A model generated the notes under the pieces. That model made no database searches, had not been told where the DNA came from, and saw nothing but the letters and a program-made list of their open reading frames with translations. The translations under genes and the position numbers were made by a program. A DNA stretch of 21,185 bases from NCBI GenBank assembly GCA_943704525.1, contig CALSCQ010003295.1, forward strand, positions 1 through 21,185, written 5' to 3'. This stretch comes from Pigoraptor vietnamica (Eukaryota > Opisthokonta > Filasterea). Shown here in pieces: positions 84 through 21,185 of this stretch (position 1 is its first letter; the number at the start of each line of letters is the position of its first letter).

Positions 84-3000
84 CGACGACGACAGCAGAA
101 GGCGCGCCAGACAGCGGCGTGGACGAGGGCACAAGCACGGCCTCGAGGAACACCGCCGCCTGTGAGTCAACCAGCGTCGGGTTACCGTAGGCGTCAAGAA
201 TGTCCGCTTCCATGTTGGGAAGCACGCCGCCGCTTTCGGCCTGCACCAAGGCGAAGGCGCAATTCGTCACTAGTCAGAGGAATGCACCCCATTCATGATC
301 AACAACGACAATTGACACTACGCTATGGCTGTGCGCAAAATATGCTGGCGCACATGCACGCGGTGCGCCGACGCACGCGGGAGACTCGCCTCGATGGCGC
401 GAGGACTTGACGCCGTGAGCGCAAGCATCATCGGCCGGGAACTGAGGTCGTTCGAAGCGCCGTCATAGCGGCTGTTTCCCACGAGAACTGCGCCGCTTGC
501 GTCGCGTGAGGCGTCGAAGGCCACAGCAGCATCGAGCGAGTACACGGCCCCGCCAGACAGCGCGCGGTTGTTCTGAAGGGTGGTCTCGCGCACACGAAAC
601 GCGCGAGCGCCGCGTGTGCGAAGGCGAATTGCAATGGCGCCGCCACAGCCGTCCTCGTAAGCCCTCCCCGCTATGTTGTCTGTCGGTAGAAATGCGGCCC
701 ATGAGTGTCAGGGCCAAATAAAAAGAAGAAACGAATATACAGGAACAGAGAAAAGCAACATAGAGGCACTCTCTCTGCCCAGATCTAGAATGGAGGATGG
801 GAGTCGAAATGAGCAAGGGGGACAATCTCTATGCATGCTGTTGAGGGCACGGGAGGCAATCACCGCTTGGAATCAACCGCATGAGTGAGGAAACACGGCG
901 AGAATAAACGCACCGGTGAACACGCTGCCGCTGGTGAGCGCCGCACCCGTCGACTCCCAATAGAGGCCGCCTGGACACAAGAGGTGAGCAACACAGTGTC
1001 ATCGGCCCAATGCACTGCGACACGTGAAAAGGAGCCACGCATACGAAATGTAGATACTACGCAAGGGGACGGCACGTGTCACGTCATGAGCCGCCGTACA
1101 AGCACGGCATGGTCCATCAGCAACTGACGCCACTCAAACATCACGCACGCACCCCCGTGCGAATCGGCCGCGTTCCCGTCAATGGTCGTGTTGATGAGGT
1201 CGAGGGTCGCGCTGCCCCTTGCGAGCACTGCGCCGCCAAGGCCCCCTCCATTCCCCGACAGGCGTCCGCCGAGCAGCGACAGCACCGCGTAGTCTTCCAT
1301 CACGATCGCGCCGCCGCCTTCCGTTCCGCTGTTGCCCGATGCTTCCAGTGCCTTCGCGGTGACATTGGCGCGGCCGCGAATAGCGAGTGCACCACCGTCG
1401 ACCTCCGCCGCATTCCCGTACAGCGATGCGCGGGCGATGGTCAGCGGCTGTGACGTGTCGACGAGCGCAAACCCACCCGATACGGCCGCTGTATTGCCTC
1501 GCCCAACCACGTCCGAGAGCGAGGCGGGGCGATCGGAGGAGAAGTAGGCCGCGCCGCCGCACAGCGCCGCCGTGTTTTCGCTGAAGACGGCCGCATCGAG
1601 CCGGAAGTCGCACGAACCCGTGACGCGAAGGGCGCCGCCGTCGTCCGCACTGCTCGCACAGCGGGAAAAGAGCGCGTGGCGCATGCGCACAACGGCCTTG
1701 TCAGCACAAGAGAAGCCCCCGCCGCCCACGTCCGCGCTGCAGTTGGTGGCGTTATAGCCGTTAATGACCACGCCAGCGTTGTTGCCCACCCAAACCGCGC
1801 CACCGAACGCCCGCGACGCGCACCCATCGCAGCGCATGTCGCCTGCCGTAAGACGAGATGCGTCGGTGAAGAACGCGCAGCCGCCGCCGCCCCGTCCAAC
1901 AATTCCACGTGCAAAGGACACGTTGGACACAGTCACGGATGCCGCGCCGCCCGCATAAATCCACCCGCCCACGTCCGCACGCGCGTCAGTGGCAGCAATC
2001 GCTGACAAAGAGATCGCCGCTGTGCCCGTTCCGAAGAAGCCGCCACCGGAGCCGCCCGCTTCACAGCGCGTGAGCGACATTCCCCAAAGTGTAAGCGGGA
2101 CGCCGTCGCCTGCCGCGAGGCAGCCGCCACCCGCCGCGGCTGTGCCGTTCTCAAGCGTGCTGTTGTAGATGGACACGGCGTGCGATCCAAAGACCGCCAA
2201 GTGGCCGCCGACATTCGCCGACGATGATACCAGCCTGCACGAGGCGAACGTCGCCGACGGAGGCACGCGTTCCCTACTCACGTCGGAGCTGTTGAACGGC
2301 ACGTACACGGTGCCGCCGGCGGCTCCCGCGACGTGGCGCGAGAAAGAGCAATTGCGCACGACGGCGGAGACACACCCCTCTATTGACAGCGCACCGCCTG
2401 ATTCGCGGGCAGTGTTCCCCGCAAAGCGCGAGTCGTTCACGTTGAGTGCGCGATTATCACACTCGTCGTTCGTCACTGCAAGCGCACCGCCGTACAGAGC
2501 CGTGTTATCGATGAACTCGCACGCGGACACGGTCAGGGCGCCCTCCGGTCCATCGTCCAGCACGATCGCACCGCCGCGCCCCCGCCACGCGTGGTCATCA
2601 TCTCCCGACGCGACGCCACTCGCGCGGTTTGCAACGAACGACGAACTCTCGATTCTGCGGACGGCAACGAAATAGAGGTACGCGAAGCACACCGCGCCGC
2701 CAGCGCCCGCCTCGTTTTCCAGGAACAAAGAGTTGGACACGTGCACCCCACAATCATTGGTGACGGTCAGCGCCCCGCCCGCAGCGAGGAGCCCGGCGCG
2801 GTTGCGCACGAACGTGCAGTGGTCTACCGCGCAGACGGCCCCATCCATCCCCGCCCTGCAGTACACGGCCCCGCCGCCGTTCACCATGCTGACGAAGTCT
2901 GACTCGAGTGCCGCGGCGTTCCCACTGAACGTCGAATTGACGACCCGCACGCGGTAAGTGCCGTCGAACAGTGCCGCGCCGCCACTCGAGTGTGCCTCGT

Positions 3001-5340
3001 TGCCAGCGAATGTACAGTCAGAGACAGCCAGCTCCGCCACCGCCCTGCTGGGCCCGTTTGTCGTCAGGTACAGCGCCCCGCCCTCGCCCGTGCGCTCCAT
3101 TCCACCGCCCGCCACGCCATTCCCCGAAAAGACGCATGACGTCACCGTGACGGAGCCTGCGCCCTGCGCAAGCACAAGCCGCACGGCACCCCCCTTCCCA
3201 CCCGCGGCCACGACCCCATTATCGGCGAAGTGGGTGTGCTCGATTGCGACGGTCCGCTGGCTCACTTCGTCACTGTCCGTTTTCACGGCAAGCGCGCCGC
3301 CGTCTTCCGCGCCGTTCGCCTCAAACGCCGAGTGGCTGAGAGAGGCTTTGCCGCACATCAGGAACGCACCACCGCCGTACCCGGACGCCCGGTTACCGCG
3401 GAATGTGACGTTCCACAGGGCACACTCCTGCGACACCGCCAGCAGTGCGCCGCCGCCGTGGTATTCCGTTGAGTATGCGCGCACAGTGACGTCACTCTCC
3501 CCGTTGCCTTGAAAGATGCAGTCGCTGACGCGGAGCCCTCCGCCAGCAAGCCCGGTCACGTGGGAGAGCGCCATGCCCCCGTACAGGCCGTCTTGCTCCG
3601 CCCCTTCGCTCCAATCGTCGTCGCACTCGCTTCGCAACACGTCTGTGAGCGCGACATTGCCAGTGAATAGCGACCGGCGCACGGCGAGTGTTGAATTCGT
3701 GCCGCGCACGCGCAGCCCGACCGTCCCACAGCCCGTATTGTTACTGAAGCGCGAGTCCTCCACGGTTACTGCTGCAAAGGCGGCATCCACCGACACTGCC
3801 GCCAGCGTGTGCGCCCCAAAGCGCTCAAAACTGCAGTCGCTGATGTCCAGCGCGCACCTCGCCGCGTCCGATACGACAGCTGCCGCCCCGTCGCAGCCAA
3901 CAAAGTCAATGCTCTCGAGCGACACGCTGACGCACGGCGCACGAACCGCGAGAAGGCCCGCGAGAGTGTCCGTCGGCTGCGCTTCATCGCACATAACGCG
4001 CGGTCTGGCGTCCACGTCGGCCGCCCCAATGCGCACGGCGCGAAGAGTGACGTTGAGGTGGCCAGGGCGCAGGCGGTGATCACCCGGCAGGAGTGCGACG
4101 ACGCCGCTGTCGGAGATCAGCGACAAATCAGAGAGAGCTGCCGCGAGACTGCGGAAGGGGTACTCGCGCGAACCGTCCGGTGACATATCGGGCGCGGGGG
4201 GCTGGTACGTGGACGGCGCCACGTGGACGGCGCAGGTGGCGGTGCGGCAGCGGCGCGACTCGGACAGTGTGCATGGACCGCCAGCGTCAATGGCGGGTGC
4301 GAGGACGCCGCGGACACGGACTTGCGTCTGGTTACCGCACGCACCGCTGCACGGCGACCACGTGCCCCAGTCGCCCGGCACACAGTCGCGCACGGTGGCT
4401 GGTGACAGATGATGTCAGCACAGAAGACGCCAATCGAAAAGCGCTCAAACAAACGACGACTGGCAGATTTTACCCCTTGTGTGCGTTGAAGACCCTCACG
4501 CACCTTCATCAAACTCGATCTCGGACGCCGACACGGTGCACGGCGACAGCGCCCCAGGCAGCGGCGCAAATACCACCCGCGCCCCCAGCGCACGCACCGC
4601 CGGCACAATCGCGAGGCTCGCCGACACATTACCCGAGGTGCCCTCGTCAGCTGTTTTGAAAGGGGCGCGCGAGAGGGCGGTCCAGCGGCCCTTGGTGTCG
4701 AGGGTCTCGATGTTGACATCAAGCGATATGTTCGCTGCGTGCACGTTCGAGAGCCCCACACGGCCGAGCCACACGGCGCCGCGGGAGGCGGTCCAGTTCA
4801 GGCCAACGTACACAGGGTTGACGCAGTTTGCAGATGACGCCTGCCATTGCGTCATTAGCGCGCCGTCAAACGCGCTCGATGCATTGCCGCCCGACGCGAC
4901 CGGCACCGCAGTGGGCAGTGCGGGGCACGCGGCAGCGCACAGCGAGCTCTCGGTAGTGTTGCCGCAGGGAGTGCCGCCGGCGACGGCCTCGCGGATGGTT
5001 GTGCGTGCGCGTGCAACGGAGGAAAGTGCGCCGCAAGGGGCGTGGCAGGATGACCACGGCGACCACGGCGTCTGCAGGCAGTTGACGTCGCACGGGCCGA
5101 GGGCGCAGTCCTCCGTCTCGACAAGCGGCGGACACGGCGTGCCAAATGCATTGGGTGCTGTCGTGACTTCGCGAGCGCGGTTGTGGACGGAGGGACCGCA
5201 CGTAACGTTGCACGCAGACCATTCGGTAAAGGGTCCGACCTCGCAGTCCACGTAGTCGGCTGTGTGGGCATGCCGCGCGGTCAGAAGGAGACGTACAAGA
5301 ATTACGATAGGGCCTCACATGGCATGTCTGTTTGAGCGCG

Positions 5341-5429
<89 letters not shown>

Positions 5430-6076
5430 TCAGTGCGTGTGGTGTGTGTAAGTGTGTGCGTGCGTGCGCGCATGCGTGTTTGTGCTGCGAGCGCTAGCGT
5501 ATGCGTGTTCGCGAGGGCACTCGATTTCTCACCCGCGAACAGCTCAATCTCAGCGACGGAGAGCGTGCACATCCCTCCAGAAGCCGTGCGGAGGCTCGGG
5601 AAGGATATCTGCGCGGCGAGGGCGGCGGTAGGCTTGTCCAGCGCCTTGTAGAATACTGTATTCGGACCCGCCACAAAGACGTTCGACGTGAACGCTGTGG
5701 TCCATCCACTGCTCGGCGTCTCGAGGCGCATGCTGACGGTGTTGGGCGGGTTCGTGCCGAAAGTAACCCGCACCGACGTAACATACCTTGTCGCACTATT
5801 ACTGAAGAGAGCTTGGAATGCAATGGGCGAGAAGGGTGCGCACGTCTGCGAACCCGCATTAAAGTAAGTGCCCGTTGAGCCGTCGTACGCGTTGAGGGCC
5901 GGCGTGCACGCCTGCCCCAGCTGACACGTAAAGCCGCTCACGGTCACGTGCGACACGCGCATCATGTTCACGTCGGCGTGCGCAAGCGTCGCTGTGCAGG
6001 CGATGGCCGCGAGGGCCTGAACTGCAAGCGCCCAACTGACCCTCGCACGCGCACGAGGACGGCCGCCGCGTGCCAT
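84..6076 (-). CDS. Secreted TSP1/discoidin-like/right-handed beta-helix protein, 3' end missing (5 exons)
   Basis: Exons 6076-5533, 5259-4504, 4398-1153, 679-377 and 269-84 join in frame. The first donor and all later junctions are phase 1. They encode 1,678 residues before the gene leaves the window. ATG 6076 is chosen because it opens a signal peptide (Arg-rich start, hydrophobic core, probable cut after AHA near residue 34). Order: discoidin (F5/8C)-like domain about 36-181; TSP1 domains about 186-238 and 239-293 with WSxxC and CxxxCG patterns and a WSPWSSC C-mannosylation motif; second discoidin-like domain (AFDG near its start) about 294-433; third TSP1 about 438-488; then about 28-30 coils of the type xFxxNxAxxGGAl. 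Exon 5 carries an LDAYGN segment that often follows such helices. Many NxS/T sites suggest glycosylation. A surface or matrix adhesion role is inferred; no catalytic motif was recognised. Intron 1152-680 and the last exon are the least certain parts. Confidence 0.86.
680..1152 (-). other. Large intron (473 bases) of the beta-helix gene
   Basis: The donor GTGCGTGCG follows codon CAC GGG G at 1153 and the acceptor CCGACAG ends at 680. Phase 1 is kept on both sides, and the joined product continues the helix repeat with GCGGAIAI. Translations of this stretch on the minus strand show no helix-type repeat, so I see no extra exon. Alternative acceptors a few bases downstream (after CATAG, or after GGGAG with a different donor) are possible, so the exact junction is uncertain. 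Confidence 0.6.
5342..5426. repeat. (TG)n/(CA)n microsatellite inside intron 1 of the beta-helix gene
   Basis: About 42 uninterrupted TG units on the plus strand read as CA units in the sense direction of the gene. The tract fills much of the 273-base intron 5532-5260 and ends about 82 bases before the acceptor. The flanking sequence 5427-5500 is also GT-rich and degenerate. Confidence 0.97.
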
Positions 6077-6426: not shown

Positions 6427-9400
6427 ATGCAGCGCCGCTCTTCCGTGACGGCGGCGGACATCAACTTTCTCGAGCCCCTCAAGCAGGATGTCGTGTTTCT
6501 GCGCGGCCTGCTCATTGACGCCATTGCAGCGCTCGCCCGCGACGACGCAGAGGCGCGCGACGTCCACGCGGTGCTCGAGTCGGTCCTCGACGCAAGCAAA
6601 CGGTACTCGCGGTCACGTGACGCCGCTGATTTTGCGCTCGTGGCGGAGCGCATCCAGGCGCTGAGTGCGCGGCAGTCGCTCGACGTCGCGCGCGCCTTCC
6701 ACGAATTTCTGAACCTCGCGAATGTGGCGGAGCGGCACCACCGCGTGCGTCGATGGCGCGCCTTCTTGCGTGGAGAGGGTGACATTCGCCTGCACCACAC
6801 GCTGTACGACTGCTTCCAGCAGGTTGTGGACAAGGTAAGCGTTGTTTGCGGTGTCCGCGCACTGCTTGTCGGCTTTCTCTGCCTGCGCGCCATTCCACTC
6901 CTCGCATGCCATGTGCGTTGTTGTCGTCGTAGCACCAACGCAGCCTCCCTCCCTTTGGCTTGCCCGTTTGTCACCCCCATTCGCTCACCGCCCCCTTCAC
7001 GCTCGCCCTTTCGCAGGGGTTCACGGTCATGCAGGCACGCGAGGCCCTCCTGCGCCAGCGCGTCGAGTTTGTGCTCACGGCGCACCCGACGCAAGCTGCG
7101 CGGCGGACAGTCCGGACGAAGTATACTGAAATTGCGGCGCTGCTGGACCGCCGCGACCGCCTGGCGCTCACCCCGGATGAGAAGGCGGAGCTCGTGGACG
7201 ACATTCGCCGCGAGGTGGCGTCGTGCTGGGGCACCAACACAATCCGCCAGATCAAGCCGACGCCCGAGGACGAGGCGCGCGACGGGCTCGACATGCTCGT
7301 GCGCAACCTGTGGGTGACCATCCCCACGCACATGCGCGCCATCGACGCAGCGCTCGTCCGCCACGGCGCGCCGCCGCTGCCCCTCGACGCCGCGCCGGTG
7401 AAGTTTGGGTCGTGGATGGGGGGCGACCGCGACGGAAACCCTTTCGTGACGCCTGCTGTCACGCGCACCGTGTGCCTGCTGTCGCGGTGGAAGGCGGCGG
7501 ATTTATACTACGACGAGATTGACCACCTGCTCTTCGAGCTGAGCATGGGCCAGTGCACGGAGGAGCTGCGCCGCGAGGCCTCTGGGATTGTGTCGGCGGA
7601 GACGGCGGACAAGCGGCACTGGGCGTTTGAGCACGGCAACATCCCCACCGACGAGCCCTACCGCCTCGTTCTCTCCCGCGTGCGCGACCGCATGCTTGTG
7701 ACGCGCAAGTGGTTCGAGGACGCGCTTGCGAGGGACTCGAAGCGCAGCCCTCAGCCCGCCGGCGGTGCTGTGGACGCGCAGCCGCCGCCGCACATTTACA
7801 CGCGCGCGGAGCAGGTCATCGAGCCGCTCGCACTCTGCCACCGCTCGCTTGTCTCGTGCGGTTACGCTCTCGTCGCGAACGGCCGCCTGCTGGACCTCCT
7901 ACGGCGCCTCGCGTGCTTTGGGCTCACGCTGACGCGGCTCGATCTTCGCCAGGAGTCGGACCGCCATGCCGAGGCGCTCGATGCTGTCACCCGCTATGTC
8001 GGCATCGGGTCATACCTGCAGTGGTCCGAGGACGAACGCGTCGAATTCCTGGCGCGGGAGCTGTCCGGACGCCGCCCGCTCGTCCCGCGCGCGTTTGACG
8101 CCCTCGCGGCTTGCAACGGCGATGCGGAGGCGGCGCAGCGCGTAACGGACTGCCTCGAGACGTTCCGCGCGGCGGCCGACATTGGGAACGAGTCGCTGGG
8201 GGCGTACGTCATCTCGATGTCGCACGCGGTGAGCGACGTGCTGGCCGTGTGCCTGCTGCAGAAGGAGGGCGGGACCCCCGAGGACCGCCTCATGCGCGTG
8301 GTGCCGCTGTTCGAGACGCAGGCCGACCTCCAGCACGCCCCGGATGTCGTGCGGCGGCTGCTGTCGGTGCCGTGGTACAAGGCGCACGCGGGCGGCCGGC
8401 AGGAGGTGATGATCGGCTACTCGGACTCGGCGAAGGACGCCGGTCGCCTCACGTCCGCATGGGAGCTCTACCGCGCGCAGGAAGAGCTCGTGCGCGTGGC
8501 AGGCGAACACGGCGTCACCATCACGCTCTTCCACGGCCGTGGCGGGTCGGTCGGGCGCGGTGGTGGCCCGCAGCACCTTGCCGTGCTCTCGCAGCCGCCG
8601 GGCTCGCTGGCGGGCGGCCTGCGCGTGACCATCCAGGGCGAGAGCATGGAGCAGCACTTTGAGGGGTTGTTCACCTCGGAGCAGACGCTGGAGCGGTACA
8701 CGACGGCGACGCTGCTGAGCACGCTGGACCCGCCGCACCCTCCGCGCCCGGAGTGGCGGGGTGCGATGGAGCGCCTGTCTGAGGACTCGTGCCGCGAGTA
8801 TCGCGACGTCGTCTACAACATGCCCGCGTTTGTGCCGTACTTTCGCGCGGCGACGCCGGAAAAGTCGCTCGGGAAGCTCATGATTGGCAGCCGCCCCAGC
8901 CGTCGCAAGGAGGACGGGGGCATTTCAGCGCTGCGTGCGATCCCGTGGGTGTTTGCGTGGACGCAGAACCGGCTGCACCTGCCCGTGTGGCTGGGCGTCG
9001 GGGGCGCGCTCGAGCGCATGCAGGCCACGCCCGAGGGTGGCGACATGCTTCGGGCCATGTACCACGGGTGGCCGTTCTTTCAGTCGACCCTCGACCTCAT
9101 CGAAATGGTCCTCGCCAAAATGGACCTCAACATTGCCGCGCGTTACGATGACGCGCTCGTGCCAGAGGACCTCAAGCACGTGGGCGCCGACCTGAGGTGG
9201 GCTTCTGAGAGAGTATTGTCTGGACAGCGCGATCGTTGCTCATTTTGCGATTGGGTGGATGGCGCCACGCAGGGCACGCGCCGGCCGCACCGTTTCTGCT
9301 GTGCTGCAGGTGACCGGCAACGCGACACTGCTCCAGGAGAACCCGGTGATCCGCCGTGCGATCGACGCGCGCGCCCCGTACGTCGATCCCCTCAACCTCA

Positions 9401-9537
9401 TCCAAGTGGCTGCCCTCGCGTCGCTGAATGCGATGGGGGAGCCGTCGGGCGGCACGAACGCGGCGTACGAAGTCGCGAACCGGACGCTGCTTGTGACGAT
9501 CCAGGGCGTCGCGGCGGGCATGCAGAACACGGGCTGA
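6427..9537 (+). CDS. ppc: Phosphoenolpyruvate carboxylase (3 exons, complete)
   Basis: Carboxylates phosphoenolpyruvate with bicarbonate to oxaloacetate and phosphate, replenishing the TCA cycle, probably in the cytosol since no targeting peptide is seen. Exons 6427-6834, 7017-9196 and 9273-9537 give 950 residues, normal for the family. Landmarks: catalytic His159 in VLTAHPTQ, GSWMGGDRDGNPFVTP, Lys609 in GYSDSAKDAGR, His642 and Arg650 in FHGRGGSVGRGGGP, IQGES, the SRPSRR loop, FAWTQNRLHLPVWLG, and the C-terminal QNTG. Residues matching the E. coli aspartate/malate site (Lys in LAKMDL, Arg in DARAPY, terminal Asn) are kept, so feedback inhibition is likely. ATG 6427 has A at -3 and no upstream in-frame ATG after the stop at 6319. 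The second intron (9197-9272) was chosen because it restores 26 residues after GADLR that align gap-free with E. coli PEPC as I recall it. The plant N-terminal phosphorylation motif is absent; an RRSS stretch sits at residues 3-6. Confidence 0.97.
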
Positions 9538-9729
9538 TCTTCGCCGGTGTTGCGGGTTGCATAACGTAGGCATGATAAACTGACCACTTGTCGCACAGCA
9601 ATTGTAGTGGGCGCAATTAGTGGGCTCAATTAAAGTTCTCAGACTGTTACTCTACCAGTTACACACGAAAGCGCGACGAAAGTGTGCGTCGCGCATCAAG
9701 TGTATACATAGCGCGCGTGTATTTGGCCA
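9538..9729. other. Convergent 3' region between PEPC and the coiled-coil gene
   Basis: The two stop codons are only 192 bases apart, so the 3' UTRs are short or overlap. CAATTGTAGTGGGCG, CAATTAGTGGGCT and CAATTAAAG follow one another at about 9600-9637 as a degenerate direct repeat. The last one could serve as a weak polyadenylation signal for PEPC. A perfect 8-bp hairpin lies at 9671-9694. No clear AATAAA is seen on either strand. Confidence 0.55.
9671..9694. other. Perfect 8-bp hairpin in the shared 3' region
   Basis: GCGCGACG at 9671-9678 pairs fully with CGTCGCGC at 9687-9694 around the 8-base loop AAAGTGTG. Seven of the eight pairs are G-C and the flanks do not extend the stem. It could form in the 3' UTR of either convergent transcript. 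Any role in 3' end formation is inference. Confidence 0.6.
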
Positions 9730-12700
9730 CTACGCAAGCGCGGGGAGTTCGCTCAGGGAGAGCACGTGCGTGAGAAAGAGCGTCAGTCCGGAGCCCGGCG
9801 AGACACACTCTGCGCCGCCATCCGAGATCCACGTGAAGAGCGCGCCGAGCGCAGCGGCGGCAGCAACGAGCGCGACCACGAGCAGGGTGACTGCCGGGCG
9901 CGACCCCCTTGCGCGGCGGCCGGCATCCTCGCGCACAGACAGTGTGGCCTCGCACAGCCCCAACCGCTGGCGGAGGCTCTCCATGTCGCCCCACACACGC
10001 GCGCGCATGCCTGCGTAATACCCTTCGCGGTACACCCCGTCGCCCAGTTCCTCGGCGGGGACGGGCGCGGCGGTCGGATCCCACGCCAGCTTCGTTGCCG
10101 CATCCTCGCTCGCCGCACGGACGACGTCCATCACGGCCACGAGTCGCTCAGCCATCGAGCGTCGCCGGTCAACCGACACCGCCACGGCGCCCTCCTGGAG
10201 GCCACGCAGTACCGCGAGAATGTTGCGCGCCGTCGAGGCGGCGTGCGCGTTGAGGTCGTTCAACCGCGATCGCAGCACCTCGCGCTCGACCGCCGCCTTC
10301 TCCGCCTGCTGCTGCGTCTCTTCGAGGCGCGTTTCGAGATCGCGCTTTTGGCCGACGAGGGTGTCCACGCGGCGGGCAATGGCGGCCTGGACCACGCGCG
10401 TGCGCTCGCGCGTCTGCAGCGACACCTGCGACACGACGCCGTTGAGCGTGTTGAGCGCGTGGGCGAGCACGTCACGCGCAGAGCTGTGGGCCTGCCCGCC
10501 CTCCTGGGCGTCGAAAAAGTGCACCGCCTCCTGAAGCGTCCCGATCACGTGATCCATGCGGCGCACGAGGCCCTCGTCCTCCGAGAAAAACGTCAGCGAC
10601 GACCCCGCCGCCGCGCTGCCCGGGCGGCTCGGCAGGAGGTCCCGCAGCTCCGCGGCCATCGCAGTGTCGCGCGCGTTGAGGTCGGCAATGCGGCCAAGGG
10701 CGCCCTGCAGATCCGCCTCCAGCTGCTCCACGCGCCCGCTCGAACCCCGCATGTCGCGCAGGGCACGGTCCGCCGCCGACCGCGCCGCATCGCACTCCCG
10801 CTGCAGTTCGCGACACGTGACATCGGACGACGCCAGCGCGGCCTGCGCATCGGACAGCTCCTGAAAGCGTGCGAATGGGCAACATTAGTGACGGCTGATG
10901 TGTTGGCGAGAGTGGGTGCAAGTGTGCTGAGCCAGAGTAAAACGACTACGATGACTCGCAAAATGCCACTAAATCAAAACCGGCAACCCACCGCGTCCTT
11001 CTGCGCCAACGACGTCTCGTACTCCTCGACGGTGCGCTCGAGCTCGGCCAGGCGACCCATGAGCTCCGCGACAGCCGCATTATCCGCACTTGCCTTCGGC
11101 GGCGACCCCGCAGCCTCCGTCGCTGTGTCATCAGACGCCCGTCGCGTCTCGGCTTCCAGCAGCGACAGTTCGAGCCGCTCGCGCAGGGCATCGCACTCGG
11201 CCGCGCGCTTCAGCGCCTCGCCAAGCCGCGCCTCCAGCGTCGCTTGGTGGGCCGTCTGCGCCGCGCGGTCCTCGTCTGCCGCAGTGCTGTCAGCCTCGCG
11301 GGCCAGCAGCGACTCGTGCAGCGCGCGCGACTCCTCCACGGCCTCCGTCAGGCGGTCCCGCAGGTCGTCGTTCTCGCGGTGCAGCTGCTGAACAAGCTCG
11401 CGTGTCTGGCGGTCCTGCTGGAGCTCCCTCTGCAGCGCCGCCTCCCGTTCCTGCGCCTCCGCGGTGAGGTCGGCAATGCGCGCCTTCATGCCCTTCAGCT
11501 CTGCCTCCAGTTGCTGCACACGCGCCGTTGCGTGCGAAAGGTTGCGCTCGGACGCTTGCAACGCGGCGCTCGCGCCCTCATACTTGGTCTGGAGAGCGCC
11601 CGCACCCGACGCACCGGCGTCAAGCGCAGCGTGTGCCACTGCCAGCTCCTGCAAAGGCATAAAACGTCAGTGAATAGCAACAAAGTATGCGCGCGTGTCC
11701 ACGAGCATGTGCCGTGTGTGTGCTTGCGCCATACAATCAACTTGAACGAGACGTTGCCACTCACCGCCGCCCTGTCCGAGAGCAACTCGTTCTGTTCGTG
11801 CAGTTGGCGTTCCAGGAGCGCCACTCGAGTCTCAAGCACAGACACGACCTCGCTGCTCGCGTGCGCGGCTTCCCGCTCAACGCGCTCCAGCGACTCGTGC
11901 AATTCCGAGCGCGCAACCTCCGACTCACGCCTCGCAATGTCCGCCTCTCGCCGCGCGGCGTTAGCGTCCGCAGCCGCAGTAGCCGCGGCCACGTTCGCTC
12001 GGTCCAGCTCTGCGCGCACGGCGGACAGCTCTCTCTTTGACGCGTCCGCCTGCGACAGAGCAGCCTCGGCCTGTGCGGTAAGGGTGGCAATGCGGGCGGC
12101 GGCCACAGCGAGCCTGTCGTCCCTCTCGCGAACGGCCTCCTCGGCCGCTCGCAGCTGTCCCTCCGTCGCAATCATGCTCTCCTCCAGCAGCGACATGTGG
12201 TCGTCGTCGCGCGCAATTTCGTCCACCACGCCGAGGGCCGCGCTGACGCCATCATGCTCCCGGCGCACCACAGCCTCCACAGCATCCGCGATGCGCAGGA
12301 CGCTCTCGCCGCCCGTGTGCCGCGCAAAGTCCTCCGCGGCGCTGCGCTCAAGCAGTTCCGCCTGCAGGTGGTCCACGCGCGCGCTGAGGCTCACGACGGT
12401 GCTTGCCAGTCGGCTCGCGTCCTCCGCAGCCTCGTCCGCCTCGCCGCGCGCCGTCGCAAGCTCCAGCGTCAGCAGGCGCAGGCGCTCCCGCAGCGCATCG
12501 CACTCGCCGGCGCGCGCCACTGCCTCCGCCAAACGCGCCTCGAGTGCCGCGAGTTCCAGACCCTGGTCGGCAATCTGCCGATCGCGGTGCACCGAAGACG
12601 CCGTGTCGGATTCGCGTTTCCGCAGGGAATCGCGGAGGGCACGCGCCTCAGCCGTTGCCTCGCTCAACTGCCCGCGCAGTTCGTCGTTTTCGCGGCGCAT

Positions 12701-13255
12701 CTGTTGCGCGAGCTCCTTCGATTGGCGCTCCTGGCGAAGTTCCCGCCGCAGCCGCTCGCAGTCGGACGACAGCCGCGCGTTCTCCTCATACAGGCGCTCC
12801 ATCTCACCCTTGAGCTGGCCGTTTTCCTGCCGCAGGCGGCGGAGGTGCGCGTCGAACTCGGCCGCAGCCGCGCCCGGCGACGCCCCGTGTCGCGCGCCGC
12901 GCGTGTTGCTTCGGGGCGCGCTGGTGGGCGTGCGCACGGGGCTACCCACGGGGCTCGCACCGGTCGGCGTCAGCGCGCCCGTGTCATAGACGCCCGCCTG
13001 CAGTGCGATCCACGTGACCATCTGCCGGCGATAGGTGTCCAGCGACACGGCCCCGGTGCCGTCCGGGTCGAGCATCTTTCGAAGGGCCGCGAGCTCGTGC
13101 TCGGGTATGCCGGCGCTGTCGCCCTCGCGCGGCAGAGAGCGCAAATAGTCCACGATGCCAGCGACGGACGCCGACTCGGTGCTACCGCGGAGAAGGCACG
13201 AGCGAAAGAGCTCGTCCAGCAGAGCGTCTTGCTCCGCACTCACAGGAGCGACCAT
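9730..13255 (-). CDS. KASH5-like EF-hand/coiled-coil/tail-anchored protein, candidate LINC component (3 exons)
   Basis: Exons 13255-11765, 11648-10992 and 10860-9730 join in phase 0 (introns 116 and 131 bases) to give 1,092 residues. Residues 8-89 form a degenerate EF-hand-type domain ending LDPDGTGAVSLDTY and MVTWI, closely resembling the N-terminus of vertebrate KASH5/CCDC155 as I recall it. Loop position 12 is Thr, so calcium binding is doubtful. A Ser/Pro linker (about 90-130) holds clustered TP and SP sites. Residues about 140-1030 are heptad-rich coiled coil with a near-repeat (171-270 versus 571-667). After RRARGSR comes one hydrophobic segment, about 1038-1061, then a 31-residue tail with a single Cys1068, 25 residues from the end counting itself. 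EF-hand, coiled coil, membrane anchor and short Cys-containing tail is the KASH5 plan for joining dynein to SUN proteins at the nuclear envelope. The tail lacks the usual PPPx ending, so a tail-anchored golgin is the main alternative. ATG 13255 directly precedes the domain. Confidence 0.85.
11139..11429 (-). repeat. Second copy of a ~100-residue coiled-coil duplication
   Basis: Encodes residues 571-667 (RELQQDRQTRELVQQ ... ETRR), matching residues 171-270 encoded at 12745-12446. About half the positions are identical by eye, including ECDALRERL unbroken in both. The copies lie in different exons, so a segment was duplicated rather than an exon shared. Confidence 0.85.
12446..12745 (-). repeat. 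First copy of the ~100-residue coiled-coil duplication
   Basis: Encodes residues 171-270 (RELRQERQSKELAQQ ... ATAR) in exon 1, paralogous to 571-667 in exon 2. Copy 1 is about three residues longer, the extra length lying around QGLELAALEARL. Confidence 0.85.
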
Positions 13256-13687: not shown

Positions 13688-15136
13688 ATGGGCTCGATCG
13701 AGCAGCTCGCCGCGGCCGTGCCTGCGCCCGTGGCCGCGCTGCGTCGCGAGGGCGAGTCGCAGTCGCCGGCAGTCACGCGCGCCGGCAGTGCTCTGGGCAT
13801 TGGTACCACGTCGCCTGCGCACACGGCCGTGGTGCTTCCCCCCATTGCGGCTGCGCAGGCGGTGCCGGGGGGTTCGGGGTCCGCAGGCCCGTCGGTGACA
13901 ATAGCGCGCGACCCGCCGTCGAGGGACGAGCCCGCAGCGAATGGCGGGAAGAAAAAAAAGAAGGGAAAGAAGAAGAAGGGGGGCGACGACCGCGATGTGG
14001 CGAGGGAGCCCGGCATGGACGCGACGGACATGGTGTGGGGCGCGCGGTTGGAGTCGACTGAGCACTCGTTGGAGGAGTACAAGAAGATTGTGGTGCGATT
14101 ACGGCGCGAGAATGCGCAGCTTCAGCACGAGATGCAGCAGACTGAGAAGGTGGGGGCGCTGGGAGTGCTTATGCTCAAGGATGTGCTGCTGTTTGAGTTC
14201 AATGTGGTTCGACTGCGTGGGAAGTGGTTCGATTGTGCGTGGGAAGCGCGCGCGCCTGTGTGCTGCAACCCTCGCTGAACGTGCCCGCGTGACGCACAGG
14301 ACACCATCGAGGTGATTTCGTTCATGCGGCGCGAGAGCGACAAGAAGGACGAGCTGGTCGTGAAGCTGCAGCGGCAATTGAGAGAGCAGCGCGTGGAGTT
14401 TGACGGGGAGAAGGAGCGTCTCACGGCAGACTTCCAGGCGCGGCTGTCTGCGCTTGAGGAGCAGGCGGCGCACAAGGCGGAGGAGCTGGGCCTCGCGCAG
14501 CAGGAGATGAAGGTCGTCAAGGAGTTCCGTAAGAAGCGCACGGCCATGCAGAAGGAGCTCGACCGCATCAAGTCGCAGATGGCGGACGTCGGGCGGAAGC
14601 ACGCCGACACGATATCGCGCATGGAGCACAAGTTCTTCGAGGAGAAGGTGCGGCTGCAGAAGGAAGCAAACAAGAAGATTAGCGAGCTCGCGGAAAAGGC
14701 ACACGAGGAGGCCGTTTCGAACCTCGACGAAACGACCAAGGCCGTCTTTAAGGAGAACGTGCGCCTCGCCGAAGCTCTGCGCTTCCACGTGCAGGAGGGC
14801 GAGGAGCTCAAGCGCGCCAAGCTGATACTAATGGACCAGGTTCGTGCGTGGTGTATATGCGTGTGTGCGTCCATGTGTGCGTGGAGGTTTGGGCATGTGT
14901 GTATGTGCGTGGCGTGTGTGCGCGCGTGAATGTCTGCGTGCGCATGCATGTGCCTGTGCATGAACGCGTATTGTATATGGCGTCGGCCAGCGTATGTAAC
15001 GCGCTCGAGAGCGGATGTGTGGCATGTGCGCGTGCGTGTTTTATTCTGAGCGTGCGTGTGTATGCCCGTTATTGCCTGTTGCAGTGCGTGTATGTGCATA
15101 CAAAGACACTTGCAGACATACACACATACACACACA

Positions 15137-15193
<57 letters not shown>

Positions 15194-18077: not shown

Positions 18078-20045
18078 TATGCTCGTGCGTGGCGCCGTGT
18101 GCTTGTGAGCCGCGTCGTACGGTCGTACGTGGGGCTGTACGAAGCGTGTGGGGCTGTACAGTCGTGTGTAGCGCTGCGTGCCGCGAGGTGCGCCAAAAAC
18201 TCATTCGTAGTCCTGCACCTTTTCGAGCTGAGTCACCTTCGGTGGTGTGCGCTCGTGCGTGGGGATGTATGCTCGTCCGTGTGGGCTGCGTTCTCTTGCA
18301 AGGCTGTGCGGCTATGTGGGCTTGTGCGTGGGGATGGCGTGTCGCTGCGCTCTTGTGCGCGGGATGTACGCTCGTGCATGGGGGTGTACGCTCGTGTGTG
18401 TCGCCGTGCGCTCGCGTGTGGGGCTGTGCGCTCGTGCGTGTCGTTGTGCGCTCTTGCGTGGGGATGTGCGCTCATATGTGTGGGGCAGCGCGTTCCTTGT
18501 AGCGGCTGTGTGGGCTCGTGCGTGTGGGATGTACGTTGTTCGTGTCGCTGTGCGCTCGCTTGTGGGGCTGTGCGCTCGTGCTTGTCGCTCTGCGCTCGTG
18601 CTTGTCGCTGTGCGCTCGTGCGTGCGGATGCGTGGGGGGCTCGCTTGTGGGGCTGTGCGCTCGTGCTTGTCGATCTGCGCTCGTGCTTGTCACTCTGCGC
18701 TCGTGCGTTGGGCTGCGCGCTCCTTGTGAGGCTGTGGCGTATGTGTGCGCTCGTGCGTGCCGTTCTGCGCTGATATGTGGGGATGGGCGCTCGTGCGTGG
18801 AGCTGCGCGTTCCTTGTCAGGCTGTGCGAATGTGCGCACGTGCGTGCCGCTCTTCGCTCGTGCGTGGGGATGGGCGCTCATGCGTGTCGCCGTGCCCTCA
18901 CGAGTGTTGCTGTGCGCTCTCGTGTGCTGCTGCGTGGGGCTGCGTGTGGGGATGGGCGCTCCTGCGTGGGGCTGCGCGTTCCTTGTCAGGCTGTGCGTAT
19001 GTGCGCTCGTGCGTGCCGCTGTGCGCTCGTGCGTGGCGTTGTGCGCTCGTGACTGCACGTTCCTTTTAGGCTGTGACGGTGGGTGCGCTCGTGCGTAGGG
19101 CTGTGCGCTCGTGCGTGTCGCTGTGCGCTCTCGTGGTGATGGGCGCCCGTGTGCGGGGCTACGCGTTCCTTGTTAGGCTGTGCGGGTGGGTGCGCTCGTG
19201 CGTAGGGCTGTGCGCACGTGTGTGTCGCCTGTGCTCGTGCGTGCGTATGGGCGCTCGCGTGTGCTGCTGCTCGCTGCTGTGTGGGGCTGTGCACTTGAGA
19301 TTGTCGCTGCGTGCGGGGATGGGCGCTCTTGCGTACGGTTGCGTGGTCCTTGTTAGGCTGTGCGGGTGAGTGCGCTCGTGCGAAGGGCTGTGCGTTCGTG
19401 CGTGCCGGGGATGGGCGCTCGTGCGTAGGGCTGTGCGTTCGTGCGTCCCGCTGTGCGCTCATGTGTGGGGGATGTGGGCTTGTGCGTGTGGCTCCGCGTT
19501 TCTTGTTAGGCTGTGCGTGTAGCTATGTGCTCGTGCGTGTCGCTGTGCGCTCTAGATCTTGTGGTGATGGGCGCTCGTGCGTGGGGCTACGCGTTCCTTT
19601 TTAGGCTGTGCATGCGGATGTACGCTCGTGCGTAGGGCTGTGCGCTCTCGTGGTGGTGGGTGCCCGTGCGCAGGGCTGCGCGGTCCTTGTGAGGCTGTGC
19701 GCTCGTGCGTAGGGCTGTGCGCTCGTGTGTGTCTGTGTGCACTCATGTGTGGGGATGTGGGCTTGTGCGTGTGGCTCCGCGTTCCTTTTTAGGTGAGTGC
19801 GCTCGTGCGTAGGGCTGTGCGCTCGTGCGTGTCGGTGTGCGCTCGTGCGTGGCGATGAGCGCTCCGTGCGTGGGCTGTCATGCGCGTTCCTCTAATTGTT
19901 AGGCTGCAGTGTGCGGGTGGTGCGCTCGTGCGTGGGGCTGTGCGCTCGTGCCTGTCGCTGTGCGCTCGTACATAGGGCTGCGCACGCGTGTGTGTCGCTC
20001 TGCCCCGTGGTGTGTGTCGCCGTGCTCGTGTATGTGGTTGTGTGC
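18078..20045. repeat. Nested minisatellite of 20-bp units with an interspersed second module
   Basis: The core unit is GTGCGCTCGTGCGTGTCGCT, with the last five bases alternating among TCGCT, GGGCT and GGGAT. Units follow head to tail, for example through 18385-18480. A second module of the form GCGCGTTCCTTGTTAGGCT breaks the array about 13 times between 18289 and 19905. Divergence is moderate and the left edge is gradual. The plus strand contains almost no A, so stop codons are nearly absent and long frames stay open by composition. Confidence 0.92.
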
Positions 20046-20760: not shown

Positions 20761-20924
20761 GTATCTGTGTCAGTCAGTGCGCCGGTGTGTCGGTGTGTGC
20801 GTGTGCGTGTGTGTGTGTGTGTGGATCTGTGTGTGCGTGTGCGTGTGTGTGTGTGCGCGCGTTTTTTTTTTTGGTGTGTGCGTGTGTGTGTGTGTGTGGT
20901 GTGTGCGCGCGCGTTTTGTGTGTG

Positions 20925-20968
<44 letters not shown>

Positions 20969-20974
20969 TTTGTG

Positions 20975-21012
<38 letters not shown>

Positions 21013-21093
21013 TGTGTGTGTGTCTGTGTGTGTGTGTCTGTGTGTGTGTGTCTCTGTATGTGTGTGTGTGTGTGTGTGTGTGTCTCTGTATGT

Positions 21094-21153
<60 letters not shown>

Positions 21154-21185
21154 GGTGTGTGTGTGTGTGTATGTGTGTGTGTGTG
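20761..21185. repeat. (GT)n tract with embedded GCGCGCGTTTT modules, to the window end
   Basis: Long GT runs are broken three times by GCGCG(CG)TTTT blocks near 20855, 20907 and 20961, then by CTGTGTG and CTCTGTATG variants up to the last base. The repeat continues out of the window, which probably explains why the contig stops here. Confidence 0.95.

Follow-up and report, generated by a model that had tools for sequence, protein, structure and literature searches.

A candidate tail-anchored EF-hand and coiled-coil protein in the filasterean Pigoraptor vietnamica, with a layout resembling that of KASH5

KASH5 (CCDC155) is a vertebrate meiotic transmembrane dynein adaptor. Its EF-hand pair is reported to bind the dynein light intermediate chain (LIC) independently of calcium (PMC9242646, PMC10071310), and residues L77, F97 and M101 are described as critical for dynein association (PMC9242646). 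The luminal tails of KASH proteins are given as about 30-40 residues in mammals (PMC8115505) and, in another paper, as 8-32 residues (PMC13200780). Long animal KASH tails are reported to have a PPPX end, an aromatic residue at -7, Leu at -9, a large hydrophobic residue at -17 and Cys at -23, and the same source describes the KASH domains of KASH5, UNC-83 and ZYG-12 as short and devoid of this Cys (PMC6527376). Plant KASH domains are described as having a (V/I)PT end and no ability to form a disulfide (PMC13200780). According to one report, KASH sequences are not confidently identifiable outside metazoa (PMC5630835), and none is reported from bioinformatic analysis of Toxoplasma (PMC10629696). 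Here, we describe a gene from Pigoraptor vietnamica (Opisthokonta; Filasterea) which codes for a protein with an EF-hand-type N-terminus, a very long coiled coil and a C-terminal membrane segment. It is located on contig CALSCQ010003295.1 of assembly GCA_943704525.1, which was analyzed from position 1 to 21,185. This stretch of 21,185 nucleotides is called the window below.

The predicted splice model has three exons on the minus strand (Table 1) and confirms the product of 1,092 amino acids that had been proposed in a first-pass annotation of the sequence. The ATG at 13255 is the first Met codon in its open frame. Exon 1 codes for the EF-hand-type N-terminus (residues ~7-90), a Ser/Pro-rich linker (~91-130) and the first part of the coiled coil. 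Strong hydrophobic residues gather at the best two heptad positions throughout residues ~135-800 (windowed analysis, no null computed). A single membrane segment is found close to the C-terminus, with 2.64 for the best 19-residue Kyte-Doolittle window, compared to 1.23 for the best among the windows starting at residues 1-992. It is closely preceded by RRARGSR. The domain order that had been read from the sequence (EF-hand-type N-terminus, long coil, single C-terminal membrane segment) is thus borne out.

The EF-hand assignment at the N-terminus is supported by a match to EF-hand_9 (PF14658), even though the match is below the curated cut-off of this family. The E-value improves from 9.8e-5 for the whole protein to 7.2e-6 for residues 1-140 and 3e-6 for residues 1-96. 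When residues 1-96 were scanned against the 24,736 families of Pfam, EF-hand_9 was the sole significant family. EFCAB10_C matched weakly (E 0.047), and nothing else was listed at E<=10, EF-hand_1 and EF-hand_7 included. The loop at residues 63-74 (DPDGTGAVSLDT) has Thr in position 12, and the first EF-hand is strongly degenerate, as judged by eye. Seven other loci of the genome also match EF-hand_9. Four of these seven were scanned as controls, and in all four either EF-hand_1 or EF-hand_7 outscores EF-hand_9, by about 3 to 13 orders of magnitude. The hand of the candidate is unusual because it significantly matches only EF-hand_9, while all four controls prefer the ordinary EF-hand profiles. 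By profile comparison, the N-terminus is an EF-hand of a degenerate kind, for which EF-hand_9 is the closest model. A single-sequence AlphaFold2 model of residues 1-140 has helices at 7-23, 31-40, 52-62 and 72-90, which is the order of an EF-hand pair, at low confidence.

We take EF-hand_9 and KASH_CCD (PF14662) to be the Pfam models of KASH5. Neither match can serve as proof of kinship with KASH5. For EF-hand_9, this was rejected because ordinary EF-hands of the same genome match the model, which has also been used for Arabidopsis. The EF-hand_9 match gains weight only from the preference of the four control loci for other profiles. The profile comparison that had been suggested was made with Pfam, not with profiles of LRMP/IRAG2, Hook or CRACR2A; EF-hand_9 stood out as the only significant family, but sequences other than KASH5 also match this model. 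For KASH_CCD, the weak match in the first coil is outranked within the protein by the bacterial coil family YabA (E 0.0049). In a search of the genome, the candidate ranks second among 11 loci with 23.4 bits (cut-off 43.3), and 5 of 14 control genomes also yield matches to this model. KASH_CCD was therefore rejected as evidence.

The coil is internally duplicated. Residues 140-221 share 36 of 82 positions with residues 540-621 (score 174; the maximum was 77 in 60 shuffles of residues 131-790), and the repeat extends at an offset of 397 over residues 219-280 (score 132). One copy is located within exon 1 and the other within exon 2. A second repeat, between residues 464-570 and 683-789 (score 142), spans both exon junctions.

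We tentatively propose that this protein is a tail-anchored EF-hand/coiled-coil tether of the endoplasmic reticulum (ER), the nuclear envelope or the Golgi, which may work like a dynein adaptor. The C-terminal segment would anchor the protein in the membranes of the ER, nuclear envelope and Golgi system, the tail of 31 residues being luminal and RRARGSR being cytosolic. On the Goldman-Engelman-Steitz (GES) scale, the sum for the segment is 41.5-47.7 kcal/mol over 19-22 residues. The sums reported for KASH5 and for a mitochondria-targeted variant are 38.6 and 31.7, respectively (PMC8115505). Judging from these sums, for which the lengths of the reference segments may differ, it is more likely that the segment enters the ER system than mitochondria. 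The coil of about 650 residues or more, lengthened through its internal duplication, would keep the N-terminus off the membrane and is probably dimeric. At the free end, a degenerate EF-hand pair, which is probably calcium-insensitive, would bind a partner. The most likely partner would be the C-terminal helix of the dynein-1 LIC, as in KASH5, FIP3 and ninein, and the outcome would be a membrane that is linked to microtubules via dynein.

A dynein-1-type LIC gene is present in the genome at C108 and was matched at five places. The hand-joined sequence matches dynein light intermediate chain (E 3e-52) and cytoplasmic dynein 1 light intermediate chain 2 (E 3e-51) among the sequences of the PDB, and dynein-2 LIC is not listed among these matches. 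The match extends past the GTPase-like fold and includes the EQxFLxKQQ segment that follows it. When residues are counted by eye from the start of the second EF-hand loop (D81 in KASH5, D63 in the candidate), Met79 and Ile83 of the candidate take the places of F97 and M101.

Several results weigh against the proposed tether. By the same by-eye spacing, L77 of KASH5 corresponds to Arg59. The adaptor-binding helix of the LIC is unseen, as the contig breaks off in a Pro run ahead of it. The EF-hand_9 score (28 bits) is under the cut-off of 37 bits. In a six-frame search, EF-hand_9 matches eight loci of the genome, with the candidate only in sixth place, and the other seven are ordinary EF-hand sequences, mostly calmodulin- or centrin-like, as judged by eye. 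PF14658 is listed simply as calcium binding among Arabidopsis domains (PMC7272662). The AlphaFold2 model of residues 1-140 is poor (predicted local distance difference test (pLDDT) 46, predicted template modeling score (pTM) 0.29), and a fold search with it returned no match at E<=0.001. In homology searches, none of 1,604 candidates for residues 1-140 reached E<=0.001, and none of 7,996 scored candidates for residues 795-1092 reached E<=1. The database includes eukaryotes, as many eukaryotic SUN proteins were returned. As no relative was found, no residue is backed by conservation, which would be the best criterion to judge a short KASH tail by.

The first-pass annotation had gone further and considered the protein a candidate KASH protein of a linker of nucleoskeleton and cytoskeleton (LINC) complex. 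As a true KASH protein, it would be located in the outer nuclear membrane with its tail in a SUN groove (that of the mid-SUN of this genome or of an undetected C-terminal SUN), and its EF-hand would recruit dynein. The protein has a short tail after a single membrane segment, as KASH proteins do (this is based on hydropathy; the luminal topology is inferred), and the length of the tail is within both reported ranges. The tail (SDGGAECVSPGSGLTLFLTHVLSLSELPALA) contains one Cys, which is the 25th residue from the end as had been noted; it is thus at -24 when the last residue is counted as 0, as is usual in the KASH literature, one off from the -23 of animal KASH tails. Further residues are Ala at 0, Pro at -3 and Leu at -7, -9 and -17. 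With five relaxed features, the tail scores 5/5 (p=1.3e-4 in 200,000 shuffles). The relaxations were chosen after the tail was seen, so that this p-value overstates the case. The strict score is only 3/7 (p 0.03). With assumed Cys frequencies of 0.7-2%, there is a chance of 2-6% that any one of three set tail positions is occupied by Cys. Moreover, likeness to KASH5 and a Cys near -23 do not reinforce each other because KASH5 has no such Cys. The tail ends in LPALA and thus has neither the PPPX nor the (V/I)PT end, and Leu replaces the aromatic residue at -7. The last 67 residues do not match Pfam KASH (PF10541) at E<=10, noting that the filters of HMMER drop most weak matches. Two weak PF10541 matches in the genome (E 0.013 and 0.45) were rejected: both are outside the window, one (L002) adjoins a long low-complexity run, and the frames of the other (L003) contain nothing KASH-like. 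Non-animal KASH tails are reported to differ (PMC13200780). The golgin CASP of the same genome (C1316, L030) also has a membrane segment near its C-terminus, followed by about 30 residues which include one Cys, the 18th from the end (counted by eye, assuming that the last exon extends to the stop codon). A short tail after a single membrane segment is thus not KASH-specific, and tail length plus a single Cys were rejected as KASH evidence since they do not separate KASH proteins from golgins. By eye, however, all five relaxed features are absent from the CASP tail. The candidate might itself be a golgin-type vesicle tether, with a Golgi tail anchor, an outreaching coil and an N-terminal module which captures carriers or a small GTPase. 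Golgin-84, giantin and CASP are likewise built as a long coil which is anchored at the C-terminus. The candidate is not CASP, having no match to CASP_C (PF08172) at E<=1, no golgin family is listed in the Pfam scan of the protein, and we know of no golgin with an N-terminal EF-hand pair. We consider a golgin somewhat unlikely.

The SUN domains of the genome bear on the KASH reading as well. In the 1,395-contig assembly, only one locus matches the SUN domain (PF07738), even at E<=10. A homology search with this domain returned 1,317 proteins at E<=0.001 among 3,508 candidates. Among the best 120 of these, the named ones are mostly fungal, with some SLP1 or SUN-like protein 1, plus proteins from Capsaspora and fish. 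Based on these named relatives, the SUN protein of this genome is assigned to the mid-SUN (SLP1-type) kind. In SUN2, 37 residues are reported between C563 and C601, with a lid of 20 residues at 567-587 (PMC6527376). The mid-SUN fragment has 29 residues between C69 and C99, with no Cys among them; a Cys occurs within this stretch in 6 of the 25 rows of an alignment (own sequence plus 24 of the 120 listed relatives), none of them from this organism. The AlphaFold2 model of the mid-SUN (mean pLDDT 80, ~73-85 in the C69-C99 region) aligns with SUN2 over 151 residues within 183 and has just a short helix in place of a lid hairpin. A mid-SUN with neither a partner Cys nor, in its predicted structure, a lid hairpin weakens the classical SUN-KASH model. 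For plant mid-SUNs, on the other side, an interaction with KASH proteins is reported (PMC10180911, PMC10629696). Both SUN kinds are reported from almost all selected species, and divergent SUNs of the Mps3 type are said to escape BLAST (PMC7982736). A divergent C-terminal SUN may thus exist, or its gene may be lacking in the assembly or interrupted by introns. The multi-exon CASP and LIC genes were recovered exon by exon with the same search method. Taken together, the KASH/LINC assignment is not upheld by the profile search, the tail or the SUN domain: KASH membership is possible, and we regard a true outer nuclear membrane KASH protein as unlikely. It is tempting to speculate about a LINC complex of this protist, with the mid-SUN as the anchor because the lineage would have no C-terminal SUN. 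The anchored partner would be a transmembrane dynein adaptor similar to KASH5, with an EF-hand pair and a divergent KASH tail. We consider this quite improbable. If true, the EF-hand/dynein design would exist at the nuclear envelope outside animals, or it would have originated twice. Finally, the N-terminal module may be an EF-hand in appearance only, the protein being a lineage-specific structural rod, e.g. of ER or basal-body-linked membranes, devoid of a motor function. The lack of homologs at the above thresholds, the sub-threshold EF-hand score and the poor fold model are consistent with this, but an EF-hand_9 match with an E-value of 3e-6 among all Pfam families is unlikely to arise by chance, and we judge such a rod to be the most improbable of these alternatives.

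Table 1. Location of the gene parts, the protein features and the SUN gene. Positions refer to the window, except for the SUN gene.
Feature	Position	Strand	Details
Exon 1	11765..13255	-	residues 1-497; open frame, ATG 13255, GT donor at 11764
Intron 1	11649..11764	-	116 nt, phase 0, GTGAGT / TTTGCAG
Exon 2	10992..11648	-	residues 498-716; coiled coil with second copy (540-680) of internal duplication
Intron 2	10861..10991	-	131 nt, phase 0, GTGGGT / TTTCAG
Exon 3	9730..10860	-	residues 717-1092 and stop; coil end, helical region, membrane anchor, tail
EF-hand_9 (PF14658) match	13007..13165	-	residues 31-83; E=3e-6, 28 bits on residues 1-96
KASH_CCD (PF14662) match, weak	12608..12847	-	first coil; E=0.009, 16.4 bits
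Internal duplication	11100-12838	-	residues 140-280 and 540-680; ~400-residue spacing
Membrane segment	9826..9891	-	residues 1040-1061; Kyte-Doolittle (19 residues) 2.64; GES sum 47.7 over 22 residues
C-terminal tail	9733..9825	-	31 residues (1062-1092), Cys1068; translation, tail pattern test
Mid-SUN (SLP1-type) gene	G000:C1364, L010 3318-5759		only SUN domain found in genome

Paralogs were not detected in the genome. With residues 1-138, two weak extra matches were obtained (E 0.12 and 2.5), which were both examined and rejected, and with the last 302 residues just two weak matches (E 3.1 and 4.7), which were rejected too.

The gene for phosphoenolpyruvate carboxylase (6933-9569, plus strand; PF00311, E 9e-261) ends near the 3' end of the candidate gene. 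On the other side, a divergently oriented gene (~13690-14929, plus strand) codes for another coiled-coil protein, and its frame 14279-14929 matches DUF4515 (E 7e-15). We take DUF4515 to represent BBOF1/CCDC, a basal-body family that would suit a flagellated cell. A large frame at 1079-4414 on the minus strand has matches to thrombospondin type 1 and right-handed beta-helix domains, and a weak match to the Chlamydia-PMP repeat that is below its cut-off. The window also contains a long degenerate array (18337-20003) of ~20-bp units with higher-order periods of 39-107 bp, and long GT/AC runs at 5342-5466, 15116-15191 and 20785-21185.

KASH partners are mostly unknown beyond animals, fungi and plants. 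A protein with the same layout in a flagellate would bear on the links between the nucleus, or membranes in general, and microtubules across eukaryotes, even if it is located at the Golgi or ER. The architecture is of real interest. It resembles that of an animal nucleus-to-motor linker.

Among described systems, KASH5 likewise has an EF-hand pair, a coil and a C-terminal membrane segment. The degenerate loops are common to both, and the only significant EF-hand profile of the candidate is the one that we assume to be that of KASH5. In contrast, the EF-hand and coil profile scores of the candidate are below the cut-offs, and Arg replaces one of the three residues that are critical for LIC contact, as judged by eye. 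The coil of KASH5 is predicted at residues 166-350 (PMC10071310), while that of the candidate is far longer and internally duplicated. KASH5 is described as devoid of the tail Cys (PMC6527376), which the candidate has, but the candidate has no PPPX end. With nesprin-type KASH tails, the candidate shares the tail length, the hydrophobic residues at -7, -9 and -17, and Pro at -3. It differs from them in that its Cys is at -24 and not at -23, the residue at -7 is Leu and not aromatic, and both PPP and a Pfam KASH match are missing. CASP, golgin-84 and giantin also combine a coiled-coil rod with a C-terminal anchor, and the tail of the genome's own CASP is similar in its length and its single Cys; the candidate, unlike these, has an EF-hand N-terminus and no CASP_C match. 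The EF-hand dynein adaptors CRACR2A, FIP3, Rab45 and ninein have an EF-hand pair followed by a long coil, as does the candidate. To our knowledge, none of them has a membrane segment as a tail anchor, in contrast to what is predicted for the protein described here.

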